Origin: a virus
Length of the DNA stretch: 32,135 nt
IMG/VR virus record: IMGVR_UViG_3300036801_000473
Span: 1 to 32,135 of that record
Direction: 5' to 3' (one strand)
Position numbers and translations under genes: made by a program. This document shows, in pieces, positions 1,043-11,701 of the stretch. Numbering within the stretch: the stretch's first letter is position 1; every line of letters starts with the position of its first letter. The notes under the pieces were generated by a model. That model was given only the letters and a program-made list of their open reading frames with translations, had not been told where the DNA came from and made no database searches.

Positions 1043-1513
1043 GTGTCTCAAGATCTGATCGCCGTTTATCGCATGCACCAGCCCTCGTTCGTCTCGCCCT
1101 GCATTCTGGGTGAGCCATGTCCTGTCTGCGCGCTTCATGCCACCTGTCGGCAAAAGCAATGCAGAAGCTGCCGCGCCGGTCAGCCGTATGAGTGTGAGCG
1201 CGCTCGCATCGCCCGTCCTGCATTTTTTTTAAAGTTCACCGCTGCTTTGCGGTTGGTCAATGATGGGCTTGCCACCTTTGTTCATCGCAACTCTGCCTTG
1301 CGTTTGAATTTTGATGAGATTACGGCACTGCGCGGCCAGAGCTGCCGTATCGATCAACACCTCATCTGGCAATACGCCGTTGGTTCGCGCCGTGCTCAAA
1401 TCGCCGTGGAACTCGGCTGGAGCATACAGTCCGGTCCGTTGCGTCTCCAGGCTTTGCATCCTGAAACCAGGGCCATTCTCCTCGCGGAAGCCGGCAAGCT
1501 TGCGCCGTCTTGA
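1043..1513 (+). CDS. conserved-looking small protein directly upstream of terminase
   Basis: 156 residues if started at GTG 1043, which has GAGGA (1032-1036) six bases upstream; TTG 944 and ATG 1073 are in-frame alternatives. The N-terminal part has a Cys cluster (CPVC, then CRQKQCRSC), so another zinc site is likely. The C-terminal 90 residues are mixed helix/strand and contain a helix-turn-helix-like stretch (RRAQIAVELGW). The stop at 1511-1513 overlaps an in-frame TTG of the terminase frame. Position immediately before the large terminase is where a small terminase normally sits, but the Cys-rich start is not typical of one, so I leave it unnamed. Confidence 0.55.
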   Translation: MSQDLIAVYRMHQPSFVSPCILGEPCPVCALHATCRQKQCRSCRAGQPYECERARIARPAFFLKFTAALRLVNDGLATFVHRNSALRLNFDEITALRGQSCRIDQHLIWQYAVGSRRAQIAVELGWSIQSGPLRLQALHPETRAILLAEAGKLAPS

Positions 1514-1533
1514 ACGCAGTGCGGTCTAACATT

Positions 1534-3498
1534 ATGAAAAAGTCATCGCGCGAAAAAAAAGATCACGCAGCTCTCGCAGGCGTTGCTCCTGCGCCTGCCA
1601 TCATCGTCCCATCGCCACAAGCGCAGTCCGCTACAGATTCACAAACAGCTGCCGCCGCTGAGCCAGGTATAGCAGCTCAACCTGAAGCGGCTAAATCAGA
1701 GCAGAGCATATCTCTGCAGCAATTTGTCCGTGAAGCGTGGAGCTTCCTTGAGCCTGTCAGCACTCTTGTCTGGAACTGGCATCTCGATCTCATCTGTCAC
1801 TATCTCACGCTCATCAAACAGGGGAATTTTAAAGATCCGTCCACGCTTCAGCCTGAAGGCATAATCTTCAACGTCCCGCCGCGGACCATGAAGAGCCTTC
1901 TCATCACGGTTTTTTTTCCCATCTGGGTCTGGACCACTGATCCGGCGCGGCGTTTCATGTTTGTCTCGTATTCAGAGAAACTCAGCACGCAGCATAGCGT
2001 CTATCGCCGCAGCCTCATTGAGTCGGAGTGGTATCAGCGCAACTGGGGCCATGTCTTCTCGCTCTCGCGTGATCAGAATGTCAAAAGCCATTATGAGAAT
2101 TCCAGGCGTGGCACCATGTTCTCAACTGGCATGCAGGCCACGGCCACCGGCATGGGCGGAGACATCCTGATCTTTGACGACCCCCTCAATCCTGAGCAGG
2201 CCATCAGCCAATTGGAAAGGGAAGCCGTCAACGTGCGTTTTGATACCACCTTTCGCAGCCGCATTAATGACCCTGTAACCGGGGTAAAAATCATCATCAT
2301 GCAGCGCCTCCATGAGCTTGATCTCACCGGACACGTTCTCACCCGTGAGAGTAGCCGCTGGGAGCACGTCAGTCTGCCGGCCATTGCCCCGGAAGATAAA
2401 ACGTGGACGTTTCCCCAACCCAATCAAGAATCTAATACGGAATCTGGTCAAACGATTGGCCAAACCACTGTCCGAACGCAAACGCAGAAAGCCGGGGCCC
2501 TGCTCTGGCCAGAGCGTCTGCCGCAATCTTTTTTGGATGGACAGCGCATCGGCATGGGTAGCTGGGCCTTTAACGGACAGTACCAACAAAGCCCTGCCCC
2601 TCTCGATGGCGGCATCATCAAGCGTGCCTGGGTGCGTTTCTATCGTGAGCTGCCCGCGCATTTTGATTTCATGGTGCAATCCTGGGACTGCACTTTTTCC
2701 GGCGGCAGTGACAATGATTTTGTCGCCGGCCAGGTCTGGGGACGCTCCGCCGGAAAGTATTACATGCTCCCGTATCGTACTTATGAACGTCTCGACTTCG
2801 GCCCCACCATGGCCGCCATCAAGTCGTGCCATGCAAAATTTCCTCGCGCACACGCCATCCTGATTGAAGATAAGGCCAACGGCCCCGCCATCATCAGTGA
2901 GTTGCAAAAAGAAATTCCCGGCGTCGTGGCCGTCAATCCTGAAGGAGGCAAAATTGCGCGTGCCCAGGCCACCGCGCCGCTCTGGGAAGCCGGCAGCATC
3001 GAACTGCCTGATCCGCAAATTTTTGGTGCCCACTGGATGGAAGACTATCTCCACAATATCTGCGCATTTCCCAAAGCCGCGCATGACGATGATATGGACG
3101 CAACCTCGCAGGCCCTCATCTATATGCGCAGCCGGCTCGGCGGAGGCATTGTAGATTTCTATCGCCAGCAGGCCGCCGGGGAAGTTCAGCCCTCCGGCGA
3201 AAGCCGCAAAAGAATCGTACGACCATCTGCTGCGGGGATTACTGAAGAAGCATCTCTGTCCCGCGATGCGCTTGCCCGCCTTGTGGTTGAAGCTGTCACT
3301 CAAGGCAGCCAGATCCAATGTAATGCCAAACAATATCCAGAGATCCGTGTATCGCTTCTCAGCGCTGCCGGTCTGTCAAAAGATTCTCGTTCAGCAGAAG
3401 ATTCACAAAAGGAATCTGGGGTGCCACATGAATCGCAATCTCTGCTTATCAACCAGGAAATTAACCGGCTCGATCTTTTATTTGGATATCAGGAATGA
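1534..3498 (+). CDS. terL: phage terminase large subunit
   Basis: DNA-packaging motor: an N-terminal ATPase drives DNA into the prohead and a C-terminal RNase H-like nuclease cuts the concatemer. Numbering from the TTG at 1510, the P-loop variant is NVPPRTMKS (121-129), Walker B is DILIFDDP (218-225), and the nuclease acidic residues are D393 (QSWDCTF), D454 (ILIEDK) and the DDDMD cluster 526-530. About 80 low-complexity Ala/Gln/Ser residues precede the ATPase. ATG 1534 opens a Lys-rich start and is preferred over TTG 1510, though neither has a clear ribosome site. About 90 residues follow the nuclease core, longer than usual. The portal is not next door: 6.7 kb of accessory DNA intervenes. 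Confidence 0.95.
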   Translation: MKKSSREKKDHAALAGVAPAPAIIVPSPQAQSATDSQTAAAAEPGIAAQPEAAKSEQSISLQQFVREAWSFLEPVSTLVWNWHLDLICHYLTLIKQGNFKDPSTLQPEGIIFNVPPRTMKSLLITVFFPIWVWTTDPARRFMFVSYSEKLSTQHSVYRRSLIESEWYQRNWGHVFSLSRDQNVKSHYENSRRGTMFSTGMQATATGMGGDILIFDDPLNPEQAISQLEREAVNVRFDTTFRSRINDPVTGVKIIIMQRLHELDLTGHVLTRESSRWEHVSLPAIAPEDKTWTFPQPNQESNTESGQTIGQTTVRTQTQKAGALLWPERLPQSFLDGQRIGMGSWAFNGQYQQSPAPLDGGIIKRAWVRFYRELPAHFDFMVQSWDCTFSGGSDNDFVAGQVWGRSAGKYYMLPYRTYERLDFGPTMAAIKSCHAKFPRAHAILIEDKANGPAIISELQKEIPGVVAVNPEGGKIARAQATAPLWEAGSIELPDPQIFGAHWMEDYLHNICAFPKAAHDDDMDATSQALIYMRSRLGGGIVDFYRQQAAGEVQPSGESRKRIVRPSAAGITEEASLSRDALARLVVEAVTQGSQIQCNAKQYPEIRVSLLSAAGLSKDSRSAEDSQKESGVPHESQSLLINQEINRLDLLFGYQE

Positions 3499-4045: not shown

Positions 4046-4204
4046 ATGCAAACTGACGCGCAATTCATCGCGGCGCTGACTGCCTATTTATTTCAATCGA
4101 ATGAAGCCTCGGCTGTTCCACTGTTTTACCAACCTGATGGCTCCATCAATCGCACTAAAACTCTCACTCTGCCGTGCTATGCCAATTTCACATCAGAACA
4201 ATGA
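4046..4204 (+). CDS. small hypothetical protein
   Basis: 52 residues from ATG 4046, with a strong GGGAGGA site (4034-4040) five bases upstream; this ribosome site excludes the longer upstream reading from 3845, which runs through the hairpin cluster. No signal peptide or membrane segment is visible. The peptide ends with LPCYANFTSEQ. It converges on the outer-membrane barrel gene and the two reading frames overlap by 12 bases tail to tail. No family recognised. Confidence 0.55.
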   Translation: MQTDAQFIAALTAYLFQSNEASAVPLFYQPDGSINRTKTLTLPCYANFTSEQ

Positions 4205-5683
4205 CGGCCGGCTCGATCCACCCAGAAGCGTATTACTCACATTGGCCAGAATATGCGTTCCTTCGTGGCCCCATGCAAATTGCAGTGAGAAAACCGGTAA
4301 ACCTCCGGCGCGAACCGTGAAACCCGCCGCATAAGTATGGATCCACGGATTCGATCCCAGGTCGCTTCGCAGCAATGCCACTTTGCCTTGATCGGCTGAG
4401 AGCAAAAGACCTAGTGGCCATTTCCCCAGCGTGTGCTCAAACGCTTCGCGGATCAGCAGCACATTTGGCGCGCGGAACCGATAATCCGTGTAGGCACCCA
4501 GTGAGGAATTGCCGTTAATGTCGCCTCCACCCAGCGTTGGCTGAAAATAAAACGGCACGCCGCTGCTGCCCTGCATCATGGAAAGTGATGAGAAAGCACG
4601 CAAACTCAATGTGCCTACTTTGTTGCGGCTAAATTGCGTGTCGCATGTCTTTACCCGGCTCGGCACTTCTCCCGTAATCGGGTCTTTTGGCGGTTGGTCT
4701 CCAGAGCAATCGTCGGGGCCGTTTGTTGTGCGGGCCGTTGGAAATCCTTTTCCGTAAAGCTGGAATTCATGCTGTAGATCGGCCGTCAGGCGCGTAAAGG
4801 TAAAGCGTGCATCTGCTGGGGCCAGGTAGGGGCGGAAAGAAAGGTCATAATCCAGATGCAGGCGTTTCCAGTCCGGCGCCATTCTGGCTCCAACGCCAAG
4901 TTGCAGGAAGAATGGCTGCGTCGTCAATCCGGGCGCACTCGCTTCCGTATAAAAAGACTGCGTCGTCGGCAGCAGGGAGCTATCGCTGGGCGTGCGAATA
5001 TCAACCCATCGTCCGTTCAGCTCGGCATAAACGCTGGCATTGACTTTGTGATCGTTCAACGGTTTAATTACGCTCGCGCCCACAATGCTTTCTCGCATGC
5101 CAAAGAATGAGCGGCCTGAGAGTGTGCTGTCCGGTCCCTGGCCAAAGAACATCAGTTTGTTCAGCGTAATGGTCTGCGCATAAACATTGATTACTGGCTG
5201 CTCGTCGATTCCTGTGGGGTTGTCCGTGCTGATCCCCTTCGTGCCTTTTTGGATTCCCACCGGTTTCACCCGTGAATCCACAAACTTCAGGTAGACGCCG
5301 GTGCGCCATGACAAATTGGGTGACACCACGGCATCGGCATTCCATGTGTTCCGCCAGTTGCCGCTCACAGTATTGTGGCCGCCAACAAAGGCCGCTCCTG
5401 CGGCAAAGCCGTTCTGCGGAGCGATGCTCCCCACGGCAATATGCACAGGCTGCCCCGTGAATAAGACTTGGAGACAGCCAATTGGGCTCTTAAAAGGGCT
5501 GCTGAAACTGCAGCTCTTCTTGAACTGGCCCATCTCGGTCGCCGGATCAAAGTCCTTCGCGCTGGGCGGAGTCGGTGAAGGCGATGGAGTGGGGTTTGGC
5601 GTCGGCGTCGGAGTTTGCGCCAAAGCTGTGCTGGCAAAAAACAACAGCAAGATACAGACAATCGTTTTCACATCAGCCCTCAT
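4193..5683 (-). CDS. predicted outer-membrane beta-barrel protein
   Basis: 496 residues. A Sec signal peptide (MRADVKTIVCILLLFFASTALAQ) is followed by a Thr/Pro/Ser linker (TPTPTPNPTPSPSPTPP) and about 450 residues of alternating polar/hydrophobic strands with many aromatic girdle-type residues, ending in Phe (RPSLF), as outer-membrane proteins do. It is the last gene of a minus-strand operon after a phosphoesterase and an 86-residue protein; its ATG overlaps the upstream stop by four bases (ATGA). A prophage-encoded surface barrel would act as a lysogenic-conversion factor, for example a porin or receptor mask, but that is inference. I cannot assign a specific family. Confidence 0.7.
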   Translation of the reverse strand: MRADVKTIVCILLLFFASTALAQTPTPTPNPTPSPSPTPPSAKDFDPATEMGQFKKSCSFSSPFKSPIGCLQVLFTGQPVHIAVGSIAPQNGFAAGAAFVGGHNTVSGNWRNTWNADAVVSPNLSWRTGVYLKFVDSRVKPVGIQKGTKGISTDNPTGIDEQPVINVYAQTITLNKLMFFGQGPDSTLSGRSFFGMRESIVGASVIKPLNDHKVNASVYAELNGRWVDIRTPSDSSLLPTTQSFYTEASAPGLTTQPFFLQLGVGARMAPDWKRLHLDYDLSFRPYLAPADARFTFTRLTADLQHEFQLYGKGFPTARTTNGPDDCSGDQPPKDPITGEVPSRVKTCDTQFSRNKVGTLSLRAFSSLSMMQGSSGVPFYFQPTLGGGDINGNSSLGAYTDYRFRAPNVLLIREAFEHTLGKWPLGLLLSADQGKVALLRSDLGSNPWIHTYAAGFTVRAGGLPVFSLQFAWGHEGTHILANVSNTLLGGSSRPSLF

Positions 5684-5940
5684 TTGCTGTTCGCGCGTTT
5701 TTTCGTTGCCGGTTTTTTAGGCTTGCCCGCCTTTAGCAGCATGGCTGTGACCTTCTGAATGTATTCGGCGGCTTGCCCTTCCGTATGCAGCGTCGCAATA
5801 TTCGTGCCGGTGCGTTGTTTCGCAGGCAGCTTCTGCTCCGCTGTGCTCAGGTGAATCAACTGCATCTGGATCAATCCTGAAATCGTGCGGTCAGGATTGT
5901 AAGCTTCTTTCTCCACTGCGGGAACGTCGATTATTTTCAT
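5680..5940 (-). CDS. small basic protein in phosphoesterase operon
   Basis: 86 residues starting at the ATG complementary to 5938-5940, with AAGGA eight bases upstream; an extension to 5970 would overlap the phosphoesterase. The core (ISGLIQMQLIHLSTAEQKLP) looks helical and the C-terminus is Lys-rich (KPKKPATKKRANSK), like nucleic-acid or phospholipid head-group binding tails. It is sandwiched between the phosphoesterase (10-base gap) and the barrel (ATGA overlap), so the three are probably cotranscribed. No known family recognised. Confidence 0.65.
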   Translation of the reverse strand: MKIIDVPAVEKEAYNPDRTISGLIQMQLIHLSTAEQKLPAKQRTGTNIATLHTEGQAAEYIQKVTAMLLKAGKPKKPATKKRANSK

Positions 5941-5950
5941 AGCTCTGTCC

Positions 5951-7192
5951 TTACAACCTGAAGGCCACACAATCGTCGTCAGGACGCATCGTATCAGTCA
6001 GCAGATCGAGAAATGTTTCTGCTTCTTTCTCTCGCTCAGTGCGGTCGTCGTACTCTCCCAGAAAACGGCTGGTCACCGTCGCGGGAATGGAAGCGTGTTC
6101 AAAGATGCGTTGCTTGCCCGGATCTTCCGTTCCGGGCACAATCGTTCCTCTTGGGATCCAGGGAGAAATCGCAATCGCAGGAACGCGCACACCCAGGCGG
6201 TCAAAATTGAAGGCCTGTCCCGTTCCAGTGGTGACTGGTTTGGCTGAATACGGCGGCTTTCCCGCCAGCCCGTCCACGCCTTTGCAGTTCGGTGGAATTA
6301 CATGGTCGTACATGCCTCCATGTTCGTCGTAGACCACCAGCAGCAGCGTGCTCTTCCACAGATCGGCATTCGTGCGAATCACGTTATAAACCTGCGCAAT
6401 GAAACGTTCTCCGGCTTTCATGTTGTGGTCAGGATGCTGGTCAGTTGCCAGAATCTGTCCTCCTCCCGGCCCCGGATGGTCCGAATAGTTCGGCTCGATA
6501 AAACAATATTCCGGTAGCTTGCCGGCCGCCGCGTCTTTCACAAAATCGCTGTAGACGCCGAACAGCTCCGGCTGATTTTGCAGCAGGTTCGGAACTTCCA
6601 GACTCGAGCTCTGCATATCGTAGTAATAAAGTTTCGAAGAATGGCCGCCTTTGTTCATGCGGTCGTAAATACTGAGAATCGGATCGGTAATGTAGAAAAT
6701 GTTCATGTCCACATTGCCAAACGAAGTCCCGTAATGGGCGAATGCGCGATTGCACAGCGTCGGCCCTGGTATAGAGGCGAACCATCCGTTAAAGAGCGCG
6801 TATTCCGTGGCCAGCGTCGTGAGTATCGGCAGTTGTTGCGGCGTAAAGTAATACATGATCGCATGCGACTCGTCGGTATTCGTGCCTTGGGTCATGTAGC
6901 TCTTGATAAAACCCTGCATGTTGGCTACGCGATCTGGCGTCGTGTTGCCGTTAAAAATTTGCAGGTCCACGCCGGCAAAGTGGTGGTCCGGATCGTGGCC
7001 GAATTGTCCTTGGAACGCCGCTTTCGGCTGCACCAGCACCTTGGCGCCGGTGTCGTCTGGGTTCCACTCATCCCGGTTCAGCCCATTGATGTTGGAATTT
7101 GTTTGTTTCATCGCGCCTAGCATGTGATCGAAGGAGCGGTTCTCCATCATTAACACAACAATATGTTTGAGATTGTCCAGCCCTTGCGCCAT
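5951..7192 (-). CDS. phosphoesterase family protein (phospholipase C / AcpA-like)
   Basis: 413 residues with hallmarks of the PF04185 phosphoesterase family: ENRSFDHMLG (17-26), PGPTLCNR (142-149), the metal-binding VYDEHGGMYDH (288-297), RLGVRVPAIAISPW (332-345) and FEHASIPATV (364-373). Family members cleave phosphodiesters or phosphomonoesters such as phospholipid head groups. The usual N-terminal Tat or Sec signal is absent: the protein starts MAQGLDNLKHIVVLMMENRSFDH, directly at the fold. The start has GGGAG five bases upstream. First gene of a three-gene minus-strand operon with a small basic protein and an outer-membrane barrel. Cytoplasmic location would be unusual, so the product may leave by lysis or act inside the cell. 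Confidence 0.88.
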   Translation of the reverse strand: MAQGLDNLKHIVVLMMENRSFDHMLGAMKQTNSNINGLNRDEWNPDDTGAKVLVQPKAAFQGQFGHDPDHHFAGVDLQIFNGNTTPDRVANMQGFIKSYMTQGTNTDESHAIMYYFTPQQLPILTTLATEYALFNGWFASIPGPTLCNRAFAHYGTSFGNVDMNIFYITDPILSIYDRMNKGGHSSKLYYYDMQSSSLEVPNLLQNQPELFGVYSDFVKDAAAGKLPEYCFIEPNYSDHPGPGGGQILATDQHPDHNMKAGERFIAQVYNVIRTNADLWKSTLLLVVYDEHGGMYDHVIPPNCKGVDGLAGKPPYSAKPVTTGTGQAFNFDRLGVRVPAIAISPWIPRGTIVPGTEDPGKQRIFEHASIPATVTSRFLGEYDDRTEREKEAETFLDLLTDTMRPDDDCVAFRL

Positions 7193-7471
7193 GAGGAACT
7201 CCCTTCGTCCCGCATCCCGGATGCGTACGCAACTATCTCTCTTGCTTTTTCTTGCTCAATACTAAAGTGGGGTGATGGCAGCAGACGTTACATAAAGTTT
7301 GAAGATAGCTTGGAAGTTAATCGGTAGACTAAGGTGAGTCTCTTAACCTGCATTGGCAATTTTTGATTCATGAGAAAGAAGCAGTCCGTATGGTAGCGCC
7401 GCACAGTTCACTCCGCGTCAGCATTGGGTAAGGTCAGGAATAACAATGAGCCCCTTTTTGAGCAATACAAA

Positions 7472-8167
7472 TTATGTCCCTCGGCTGAACATTTTGACCT
7501 GTTTCACCGGATACGCGCACAGCTCCTTCACCGCACACTCATAACATTGCGGGGATTTATCGCGGCAGATTTCTTTGCCATGTTGCCGCAACAACAAATG
7601 CGCCTGGGCAATGGCCTCGGCTTTGCGTGGAAGCTCTGGTTTCAACGCCTCCTGCACGGACCTGTAGGCAGCGCCATAATTTTTCTGCCACCGTCCATAA
7701 CCAACGCGTGTAAGCACTCGTAGTCCGTTCCATTCCAGCGGTAACCCCGGCGATGAGCCACAAAACATCAAAATCTTTTCCGCGCCGGGGTCGCCAACAT
7801 TAGGGAACTGCTTCAACGCTTTCTTGGCCTGCGCATAGGGCAGCTTGAGTATCGGGTCCAGGTCGCCATCAAACTGGCTCAGCGTGATACGTGCAATTTC
7901 CTGCCAGCGAAATACTCGCACCTTGGGACGCATGCCTCCCATCGTAGCTAGCTCCAGCAGGATATCGGGATTGGCTTTCAGGATTGCTTTCGGGGTCAGC
8001 CCGATTTGTTTCCGCAGGCCCTCGAAAACGGTGGCACGCCGCTCATCAGGCAGTAGGTAGCAGGCATTTTCCCACATCACCAGTTCGAACGGCCCTTTGG
8101 CCGGAGGCATTATGGGAGCGCCATAGCGGCTCTTAAGCTTTGCAATTATTTTTTTGAATTCCGGCAT
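7472..8167 (-). CDS. endonuclease III-like HhH-GPD / [4Fe-4S] protein with atypical active site
   Basis: 231 residues. A helix-hairpin-helix (LKQFPNVGDPGAEKIL, about 118-133) and four C-terminal cysteines C201-x6-C208-x2-C211-x5-C217 match EndoIII spacing exactly, so the fold and cluster look intact. EndoIII removes oxidised bases using a Lys in the hairpin and an Asp in a VDTHxxRV motif. Here the Lys position reads Pro in VGDPGAE, and the Asp motif reads LEWNGLRV, with Glu145 and Trp/Asn in place of Asp, Thr and His. It may be a DNA-binding relative, a glycosylase with another specificity, or inactive. No clear ribosome site; GACTAAA at 8177-8183 upstream resembles sites near the next gene. 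Confidence 0.75.
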   Translation of the reverse strand: MPEFKKIIAKLKSRYGAPIMPPAKGPFELVMWENACYLLPDERRATVFEGLRKQIGLTPKAILKANPDILLELATMGGMRPKVRVFRWQEIARITLSQFDGDLDPILKLPYAQAKKALKQFPNVGDPGAEKILMFCGSSPGLPLEWNGLRVLTRVGYGRWQKNYGAAYRSVQEALKPELPRKAEAIAQAHLLLRQHGKEICRDKSPQCYECAVKELCAYPVKQVKMFSRGT

Positions 8168-8319: not shown

Positions 8320-8727
8320 TCAAGATTGCAAGGATTGAAACCTTGCGTCGTCTGTTTTCTCAATCTCACCGCCTTCCACCATGCGCCGTAGCACGGTGTG
8401 AATAGAAGACAATAGATTCACCTGGTCTCTGCCGATACCGATTTTCAGCAGATCGTCGCGAACGTCAACCGGGCTCAGCGCCTTCTTGTGAATGCGGAAC
8501 AGCCGCCGGATAGCATCTGTAAATCCCATGCCTGAGTCAATGGCAAAGCCCTCGGTCAGCAGCAGTTTGTCGATCTCGTCCGGGGACGCGCCGCACAGTT
8601 CGCCCAGTGCTTTGACTGTGTGTTTCAGTTTGCGGATTTGCAGGTCAATTTGGTCCCGTTTCTGCAGCTGTTTAAGCAGATCAAGTTTTGCTGTCTCGTA
8701 AGCCTGGCTGTATGCGGGTCGCGCCAT
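8320..8727 (-). CDS. coiled-coil plus winged-helix DNA-binding protein (probable regulator)
   Basis: 135 residues. Residues 10-45 form a charged coiled coil (KLDLLKQLQKRDQIDLQIRK); residues 68-130 form a winged helix (DAIRRLFRIHKKALSPVDVRDDLLKIG, then VLRRMVEGGEIEKT), resembling HARE-HTH or related folds. Its own upstream region carries two GTCTAAA copies 11 bases apart (8739-8745, 8750-8756) and a TTTAGTCTAAA palindrome (8735-8745), and a strong promoter faces the other way at 8806-8835. That arrangement fits an autoregulated switch. With no CI-type gene in the window, it could be the lysogeny or island regulator; this is inference. Confidence 0.65.
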   Translation of the reverse strand: MARPAYSQAYETAKLDLLKQLQKRDQIDLQIRKLKHTVKALGELCGASPDEIDKLLLTEGFAIDSGMGFTDAIRRLFRIHKKALSPVDVRDDLLKIGIGRDQVNLLSSIHTVLRRMVEGGEIEKTDDARFQSLQS

Positions 8728-10189: not shown

Positions 10190-10225
10190 TGCGAAAGCGG
10201 TTTGGAGCAAAGCGACAAAATGAAA
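10190..10225 (+). repeat. 36-base leader repeat, copy C, containing the portal start
   Basis: The copy runs TGCGAAAGCGGTTTGGAGC to AAAATGAAA and so contains both the GGAG ribosome site and the portal ATG (10220). The T-to-A and A-to-T changes relative to copy B create the start codon. A shorter TTTGGAGCAAA match precedes the protease gene at 11814. Confidence 0.55.
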
Positions 10226-11701
10226 AGCACTGACATATTCAAGAACGGAAAAATAGCTGCGCTGGATTCCGGACTGCCAGAGCTTGGGCTTGCGGCCCGT
10301 GTCGGTCGCAAGCTCAGGAACACCATCGACGTCTGGTTTGGGCCTGATCTGCCCATGTCACCCAGTGCTCCGGCAGGCACGCCACCGCGCACACTCGATT
10401 ATCCCGTCGGTTACAACATCAACATTCAACCGCGCAACATGGAGCCCATCTCGTTCCACCAGATGCGTTCCCTTGCTGACTCGTTTGATCTTGTACGTCT
10501 CTGCATTGAGACGCGCAAAGACCAGGTCAGCCGGATGCCCTGGGCCTTTCGCAAAAAATCTCAGCCCGGCCACGCGAAAAACATTGACGCTCGCGGCAAC
10601 AAACCTTTCGGCGGTGAAGACAATGAAGAGAGTGATCCCCGTCTCGCGCAGTTGACGGATTTCTTTTCATATCCAGATAAAGAACACACATGGCAGCAAT
10701 GGGTGCGCTTGTTGCTTGAAGACCTCCTCGTCATCGACGCCCCGGTGCTGGTTCCCATCGTCTCTCAGGATGGCGAGCTCTGGTCTCCGGGCAAACAGCT
10801 TTATGCCCTTGAGGTCATTGATGGTTCAACCATCGCGCGCAAGATCGACTCCATGGGGCGCACGCCCGCATCACCTGCCATTGCTTATCAACAGATTCTC
10901 AAAGGCTTGCCCGCCGTCGATTTCACGGCGGACCAGCTCATCTATCGTCCGCGCAACGTGCGTGCGCATAAATTCTTTGGCTTCTCTCCGGTTGAGCAGA
11001 TCATTCTCACCATCAATATCGGTCTGCGTCGGCAGATTCACCTGCTGAATTACTATACTGAGGGCAACGTGCCGGAAGCCGTGGCGCAGGTTCCCAAAGA
11101 GTGGTCCGCCGATCAGATCAGTGAATTTCAGGATTGGTTTGATAGTTCTCTCGCCGGAAACTCCGCGCGCCGCCGTCGCATCACCTTTGTTCCGGAGTGT
11201 GGCACTCTCCAATTCACGCGCGATCCCATGCTCAAGGATGCGCTTGATGAATGGATTACCCGCATCGTCTGTTACGCCTTCGGTCTCTCGCCGCAGCAAT
11301 TTGTTAACGCCATGAACCGTGCCACTGCCGAGACCAGCGTTGAGCAAGCTGCCGCGGAAGGCCTTGTGCCAGTTCTTGGGTACCTGGCAGACACCATTAA
11401 CTTCATCGTGCATCGTCATTTCGGCTTCAATGACATCGAATTTGTCTGGGAACAGGACCGCACCTTGAATGCGCTCGAGCAGGCAAAGATTGATGACATT
11501 TATGTCCGCGCGGGCGTTCTTTCCATTGATGAAATTCGCCAGGAACTTGGCAAACATTCTCTCGGGATTAAGAATGCTGTCATCACCAGTACCGGAATTT
11601 GTTTGCTGCAGGGGCAAGATTCATCGAATGGCTCAGCTTCGTCAGATATTTCCAGCATAAGGCAGGTTGGACCAGAAGCCGACTCTTCTTCAAATAAATA
11701 A
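10220..11701 (+). CDS. phage portal protein (HK97 type)
   Basis: 493 residues from ATG 10220, with GGAG at 10204-10207; TTG 10202 is an upstream alternative. The portal forms the dodecameric ring through which DNA enters and leaves the head. Family features are the N-terminal wing with LVRLCIETRKDQVSRMPWAF, the NYYTEGNVPEAV stem region, and the C-terminal segment CYAFGLSPQQFVNAMNRAT with TSVEQAAAEGLVPVLGYL. The last 40 residues are Ser-rich and probably disordered. It is separated from terL by the accessory island but directly precedes the protease, the usual order. Confidence 0.95.
   Translation: MKSTDIFKNGKIAALDSGLPELGLAARVGRKLRNTIDVWFGPDLPMSPSAPAGTPPRTLDYPVGYNINIQPRNMEPISFHQMRSLADSFDLVRLCIETRKDQVSRMPWAFRKKSQPGHAKNIDARGNKPFGGEDNEESDPRLAQLTDFFSYPDKEHTWQQWVRLLLEDLLVIDAPVLVPIVSQDGELWSPGKQLYALEVIDGSTIARKIDSMGRTPASPAIAYQQILKGLPAVDFTADQLIYRPRNVRAHKFFGFSPVEQIILTINIGLRRQIHLLNYYTEGNVPEAVAQVPKEWSADQISEFQDWFDSSLAGNSARRRRITFVPECGTLQFTRDPMLKDALDEWITRIVCYAFGLSPQQFVNAMNRATAETSVEQAAAEGLVPVLGYLADTINFIVHRHFGFNDIEFVWEQDRTLNALEQAKIDDIYVRAGVLSIDEIRQELGKHSLGIKNAVITSTGICLLQGQDSSNGSASSDISSIRQVGPEADSSSNK

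Follow-up and report, generated by a model that had tools for sequence, protein, structure and literature searches.

The 32,135-base IMG/VR virus record IMGVR_UViG_3300036801_000473, analysed over its entire length and referred to here as the window, reads as a phage, with genes for the large terminase subunit (TerL), a portal protein, a protease, capsid-like proteins and an integrase. Its minus strand carries a compact operon of three genes (the trio), which encode a phosphoesterase, a protein of 86 amino acids (the 86-mer) and an outer-membrane barrel, preceded by a candidate promoter of the extracytoplasmic function (ECF) sigma type. The four features are as follows.

5951–7192, minus strand: leaderless protein of 413 amino acids (aa), predicted catalytic subunit of an NPC-type phospholipase C (PF04185), from its PF04185 and NPC4 matches
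5680–5940, minus strand: 86-aa protein with a lysine-rich tail, by sequence clearly a detached phospholipase C-terminal domain, from its match to the fused enzyme of assembly L004
4193–5683, minus strand: predicted 16-stranded outer-membrane barrel of the Omp85 superfamily, 496 aa, with a signal peptide and no POTRA domain, from AlphaFold2 (AF2) modelling and Foldseek
7267–7292, minus strand: predicted promoter of the ECF-sigma type, TGTAACG-N16-CAC, with its first base 100 bases ahead of the phosphoesterase ATG

The gene of the 86-mer (ATG at 5940, stop at 5680–5682) starts 10 bases past the phosphoesterase stop, and the barrel start overlaps the 86-mer stop as ATGA. This spacing, the gene order, the leaderless first gene and the signal-bearing barrel had all been described in a first-pass annotation made from the letters alone, and are borne out by the sequence.

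Other phages and some chromosomes carry the genes in the same order. Among chromosomal proteins, those closest to the phosphoesterase come from two Acidobacteriaceae assemblies (L002, L003), where homologues of the 86-mer and the barrel follow; one L003 gene contains the 86-mer domain twice. Enzyme and 86-mer form one 478-aa protein, followed by the barrel, in a Bryobacterales assembly (L004), and in a Pyrinomonadaceae assembly (L005) the barrel follows a 506-aa enzyme with a lysine-tailed C-terminal domain. Across 297 Acidobacteriota genomes, strong matches to the barrel (E<1e-130), the 86-mer and the enzyme (E<1e-150) fell in 7, 7 and 6 genomes of the same set, the seventh retaining only the C-terminal part of the enzyme, cut by a contig end; in one genome (G021) the barrel sits on a different contig. 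The probability that two sets of 7 in 297 coincide by chance is 2.7e-14. Chromosomal copies also sit in settings outside prophages. The trio is a conserved module of Acidobacteriota chromosomes and of two unrelated phage families. The first-pass annotation had not recognised the combination and would have been refuted by a trio occurring nowhere else; the recurrence in genomes and phages rules this out, as it does chance juxtaposition. The chromosomal trio of G255 has, 2 kb away, a gene for an integrase 49% identical to that of the window (L114, 11302–12411), which suggests mobility there too.

The phosphoesterase matches PF04185 with E=4.4e-67 and 227 bits, against a curated cut-off of 23 bits. 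It had been described as lacking any export signal, and a check for one missed upstream bears this out: the frame above its ATG is closed 22 codons up, the intervening translation (ARKSKRDSCVRIRDAGRREFL) lacks any hydrophobic stretch, and residue 17 already opens the catalytic ENRSFDH motif (12–21 residues from the start in 17 aligned enzymes), so a missed signal sequence is ruled out. The nearest solved structure is plant NPC4 (8hav; E=6.4e-71, or 5.4e-90 with a larger profile), which is also the best fold match of the modelled L004 fusion protein (E=1.5e-30). Eight residues shown to be necessary for catalysis in NPC4 (E23, N24, D76, H79, T158, H264, D299 and E300; PMC9837106) correspond to E17, N18, D67, H70, T145, H253, D289 and E290 of the phosphoesterase; all eight, including the threonine nucleophile, are kept, and their equivalents are invariant across the 17 aligned enzymes. 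An NPC-type phospholipase C, with a putative activity releasing diacylglycerol, is therefore the best-supported assignment. The enzyme resembles NPC4 (PDB 8hav/8haw) in belonging to PF04185, in its eight catalytic residues and in the post-catalytic C-terminal domain of its fused relatives, whereas here that domain has its own gene and a lysine tail, and an outer-membrane barrel is encoded in the same operon. The bacterial PF04185 enzymes PlcH, PlcN and AcpA have the same catalytic fold but are exported by a signal sequence, unlike the window enzyme. Other leaderless members of the family were seen: one fused to a metalloprotease-like domain (L006, 6001–8154; HEFGHALGCIHEHNHP), and one, leaderless-looking, on a further virus contig for which a similarity search found no barrel (L110, 2706–4163).

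The 86-mer has no match among Pfam, NCBIfam or PHROG families and, like the phosphoesterase, no hydrophobic signal-like N-terminus. It occurs in both chromosomal and phage trios, and it matches the C-terminus of the fused L004 enzyme with E about 1e-25. A weaker-matching C-terminal domain is fused to the enzyme in L005, L121 and L109, and the fused C-terminus of the L005 type aligns into the C-terminal domain of NPC4. All 11 stand-alone 86-mers tested are basic at their end, lysine and arginine making up 30–60% of the last 20 residues. Judged by sequence, the 86-mer and the L004 C-terminus are clearly one and the same domain, and the 86-mer would represent a detached C-terminal domain of the phospholipase. 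The corresponding region of NPC4 is an 80-residue, three-helix domain whose removal nearly abolishes activity (PMC9837106). When whole 86-mer sequences were aligned with the fused enzymes, their first helix fell in the wrong place, hence only full-length rows were used to model the fusion.

The window barrel begins with a hydrophobic N-terminus (maximum Kyte–Doolittle mean 3.07; range 1.92–3.35 over 16 barrels) and has no Pfam, NCBIfam or PHROG match, PF01103 included. Its AF2 model (predicted local distance difference test score, pLDDT, 73; predicted template modelling score, pTM, 0.71) has 16 strands, counted from the listed elements, and the top Foldseek matches in the PDB are all Omp85 proteins, namely TamA, the SAM complex, BamA, Toc, CdiB and FhaC. 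A profile of the barrel finds distant homologues (L050, L032) which do match PF01103 (E=1.4e-15). The model points to a BamA/TamA-type outer-membrane barrel of the Omp85 superfamily. Between signal peptide and first strand it has about 55 residues, mostly of low confidence, and no POTRA domain, so the barrel was assigned to the noNterm subgroup, which is defined by the absence of an N-terminal extension (Heinz and Lithgow 2014, PMC4104836). With that subgroup it shares 16 strands, a long loop between strands 11 and 12 and the missing extension; it differs in a sequence too distant for PF01103, in a conserved operon with a phospholipase-type enzyme and in being phage-borne. The distant POTRA-less barrels of L050 and L032 lie directly downstream of Exo_endo_phos or DSP-type phosphatase genes, hinting at a wider theme of barrels paired with phosphoesterases. 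The identities first proposed for the three proteins are thus refined rather than overturned, the phosphoesterase to a predicted NPC-type phospholipase C, the 86-mer to its putative detached domain and the surface barrel to an Omp85-type protein.

A search with the portal protein returned 35 related virus contigs. In this family, putatively phages of soil bacteria, a minus-strand bay for cargo extends from TerL to the portal gene; in the window it is framed by two genes.

1510–3498, plus strand: large terminase subunit, left border of the bay (PF17289, phrog_38)
10202–11701, plus strand: portal protein, query of the family search (PF04860)

The trio is found in seven contigs of the family (the window, L009, L010, L065, L078, L087 and L077, with L010 and L077 cut) and its order is constant. 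Among ten close relatives, the window included, in which the interval from TerL to P179 is complete, three carry the trio and seven do not, as befits the dispensable accessory genes known as morons. The unrelated phage L109, in which none of the window's head genes was matched, carries a fused enzyme and a barrel. In trees of the enzyme (support 97/99) and of the barrel (96/95) the copies of the phage family group into a single clade with L109 apart, which implies at least two captures. Ratios of non-synonymous to synonymous substitution between phage pairs are 0.05–0.06 for the enzyme, 0.06–0.12 for the barrel and 0.09 for the 86-mer, with synonymous sites near saturation; the phage copies are under purifying selection, and these ratios rule out a degenerate or decaying cargo. 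Among 50,697 phage records searched, the enzyme found two weak 30% matches only and no similar barrel was found, and a single protein among the viral proteins of BFVD matched the barrel model below 1e-3. In a search of the literature on acidobacterial viruses, the Tunturi virus paper makes no mention of phospholipase, phosphoesterase or outer-membrane genes (PMC11924767).

When the upstream regions were aligned, six phages together with G255, L003 and L004 shared the element TG(A/T)AACG-N16-CAC, its first base 85–101 bases ahead of the enzyme gene, and the seventh phage copy (L010) has it with one mismatch. A check of 431 kb of strand sequence gave six exact matches, every one of them at this position upstream of the trio; the window holds one match versus 0.11 expected. 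In whole genomes an extended pattern matched at 14 sites, spread over four genomes, against 0 for the reversed control. In G001 such sites precede an ECF sigma gene and a zf-HC2 anti-sigma gene, in G101 a site lies before a sigma gene of the G001 type, and in G021 before an anti-sigma gene. With AAC in the -35 element, a fixed 16-base spacing and its presence before an ECF sigma gene, the element is what an autoregulated ECF promoter looks like, and it is predicted to be one. Its presence ahead of ECF sigma and anti-sigma genes in host genomes makes it probable that the trio is transcribed under a host ECF sigma factor. A scan for sigma-70 promoters gave no more sites in the trio region than in shuffled sequence. 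One G001 locus (L136, G001:C1:266000-284000) contains four copies of TGWAACG-N16-CAC and encodes an ECF sigma factor, a zf-HC2 protein, a CHAT-TPR protein, a sortilin-like BNR protein, a leaderless papain-like protease and a chagasin inhibitor; it resembles a regulon for leaderless hydrolases, of which at least one has a cognate inhibitor.

Taken as a whole, the trio is tentatively read as a lysogenic-conversion (moron) operon, in which a phospholipase C of two subunits in the cytosol would remodel the envelope together with an outer-membrane barrel. An envelope or stress signal in the lysogen would release the host ECF sigma factor, which would then transcribe the operon. Phosphoesterase and 86-mer would form one cytosolic NPC-type phospholipase C, the 86-mer completing the catalytic pocket as the C-terminal domain of NPC4 does and its lysine tail anchoring the complex to acidic phospholipids of the inner membrane. 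The enzyme would cleave head groups to give diacylglycerol, and the Omp85-type barrel would act on lipid or protein traffic of the outer membrane, so that the envelope of the lysogen is remodelled. Enzyme class, split architecture and barrel fold, which rest on computed evidence, are the best-supported parts. The first-pass annotation had joined an intracellular phospholipid-type hydrolase with a surface barrel in a prophage, and the recurrence of the trio together with the signal check supports this pairing as moron-like cargo; of the three roles it offered (envelope modification, phage exclusion and help in release) the first appears the best, with the phage probably altering the envelope of its own host cell. 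The trio resembles morons and other lysogenic conversion genes in being accessory, on the opposite strand and under its own predicted promoter, and differs from typical morons in that its control is apparently wired to a host ECF sigma factor.

The proposed system has precedents. PlpD is a phospholipase–Omp85 fusion with a proposed role in the lipid homeostasis of the outer membrane (PMC11116518), and PlcP is a bacterial phospholipase C of lipid remodelling and replacement (PMC4796936). Like the patatin–Omp85 fusion PlpD, the trio pairs a lipolytic enzyme with an Omp85 barrel (PMC11116518), but it has another enzyme fold, separate chains, no POTRA domain and no signal on the enzyme. It lacks the patatin and POTRA domains fused to a barrel that mark PlpD-type proteins, and likewise the Sec-signal partner and POTRA transporter of two-partner secretion. 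If the envelope-remodelling reading is true, a phage cargo has brought itself under host ECF sigma control, an NPC-type phospholipase C of bacteria has been split into catalyst and activator, and POTRA-less Omp85 barrels have a natural partner, giving a concrete route to their function.

Several points weigh against that reading. PF04185 also includes acid phosphatases and other phosphodiesterases. A direct sequence match between the 86-mer and the C-terminal domain of NPC4 is not significant, and the C-terminal domain of the fused model has a pLDDT of only 50–60. The upstream element was not found at the trios of G001, G101, G216, G056, L005 and G128, nor at that of phage L109. The portal protein finds no closer match than 43% among 396 Acidobacteriota genomes, and these bacteria are putative hosts of the phage family. 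Finally, cytosolic enzyme and outer-membrane barrel are predicted in separate compartments and any contact is inferred only, as we also infer the activity and location of the enzyme, membrane binding by the lysine tail and cooperation with the barrel. A bolder version, that this is a new kind of two-membrane system comprising a cytosolic two-subunit phospholipase C with a separate basic activator and a POTRA-less Omp85 barrel, induced by an ECF sigma factor and acquired in two captures by unrelated phages, one family having thereby entered the host envelope-stress regulon, is possible and for now doubtful.

The main rival is that the phospholipase is a leaderless effector or exoenzyme leaving by contractile injection or another non-Sec route, with the barrel aiding its exit or protecting the producer; it is the main rival because other genes carrying the element encode leaderless hydrolases and one protein of the extracellular contractile injection system (eCIS) type. 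The leaderless-looking products encoded behind the element are a papain-like protease with an adjoining chagasin inhibitor gene, a class 3 lipase, a glutamine deamidase and an eCIS_core protein. At L154, G255:C1:78793 and C1:81107-105144 the element stands before an eCIS_core protein gene and close to a contractile-sheath/eCIS_core locus of G255. However, a contractile sheath was found in 2 of 11 trio-bearing genomes (many of them drafts), eCIS_core in the same two and VipB, the sheath of the type VI secretion system, in 1 of 11, and contractile-injection cargo as a general rule is ruled out by this absence from most trio-bearing genomes. The nearest structural relative, plant NPC4, is moreover an intracellular enzyme, and we consider the effector role unlikely.

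Phosphate-saving lipid remodelling, in which the operon would free membrane-lipid phosphate under phosphate limitation in the manner of PlcP and plant NPC enzymes, agrees with the enzyme class and with the induction of PlcP by phosphate deficiency and its need for lipid replacement (PMC4796936). It becomes rather improbable given an ECF-type promoter, chromosomal neighbourhoods in which no pho or pst genes were noticed by eye, and an Omp85 barrel whose role it does not explain.

Somewhat less credit still goes to an anti-phage function, whether superinfection exclusion or membrane-damaging abortive infection. The trio does occur in integrase-bearing phages, and the same bay in L099, a phage without the trio, holds a HipBA-type toxin–antitoxin pair (4734–6334). 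Against this, no PADLOC model of a known defence system matched the trio, no sensor or nucleotide-signal domain was seen, and chromosomal copies lie outside prophages, leaving the earlier suggestion of phage exclusion unsupported.

A split type V-like secretion system, in which the barrel moves the phospholipase over the outer membrane as once proposed for PlpD, would account for an Omp85-type barrel adjoining a lipolytic-type enzyme. It is very improbable: neither enzyme nor 86-mer has a signal peptide that would take it to the periplasm, the barrel has no POTRA domain, and the enzyme domain of PlpD itself remains periplasmic (PMC11116518). Most remote is the suggested help in lysis or release, which a membrane-directed enzyme type and an outer-membrane protein in a phage might invite, because the trio runs opposite to the late genes from its own host-type promoter, is missing from 7/10 complete bays and is present in chromosomes.

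No tRNA was found in the window. Two other genes share its bay.

7472–8167, minus strand: HhH-GPD-like DNA glycosylase or nuclease, from weak NCBIfam/Pfam matches
8320–8727, minus strand: conserved 135-aa bay protein, a coiled coil with a winged-helix-like part by eye, occurring with or without the trio

Relative to the trio, the window has the HhH-GPD-like gene upstream, whereas L065, L078 and L087 have it downstream; the genes of the bay have therefore been shuffled. Most family phages with a covered bay keep the 135-aa protein, in every case on the minus strand and within the interval between TerL and the portal gene.

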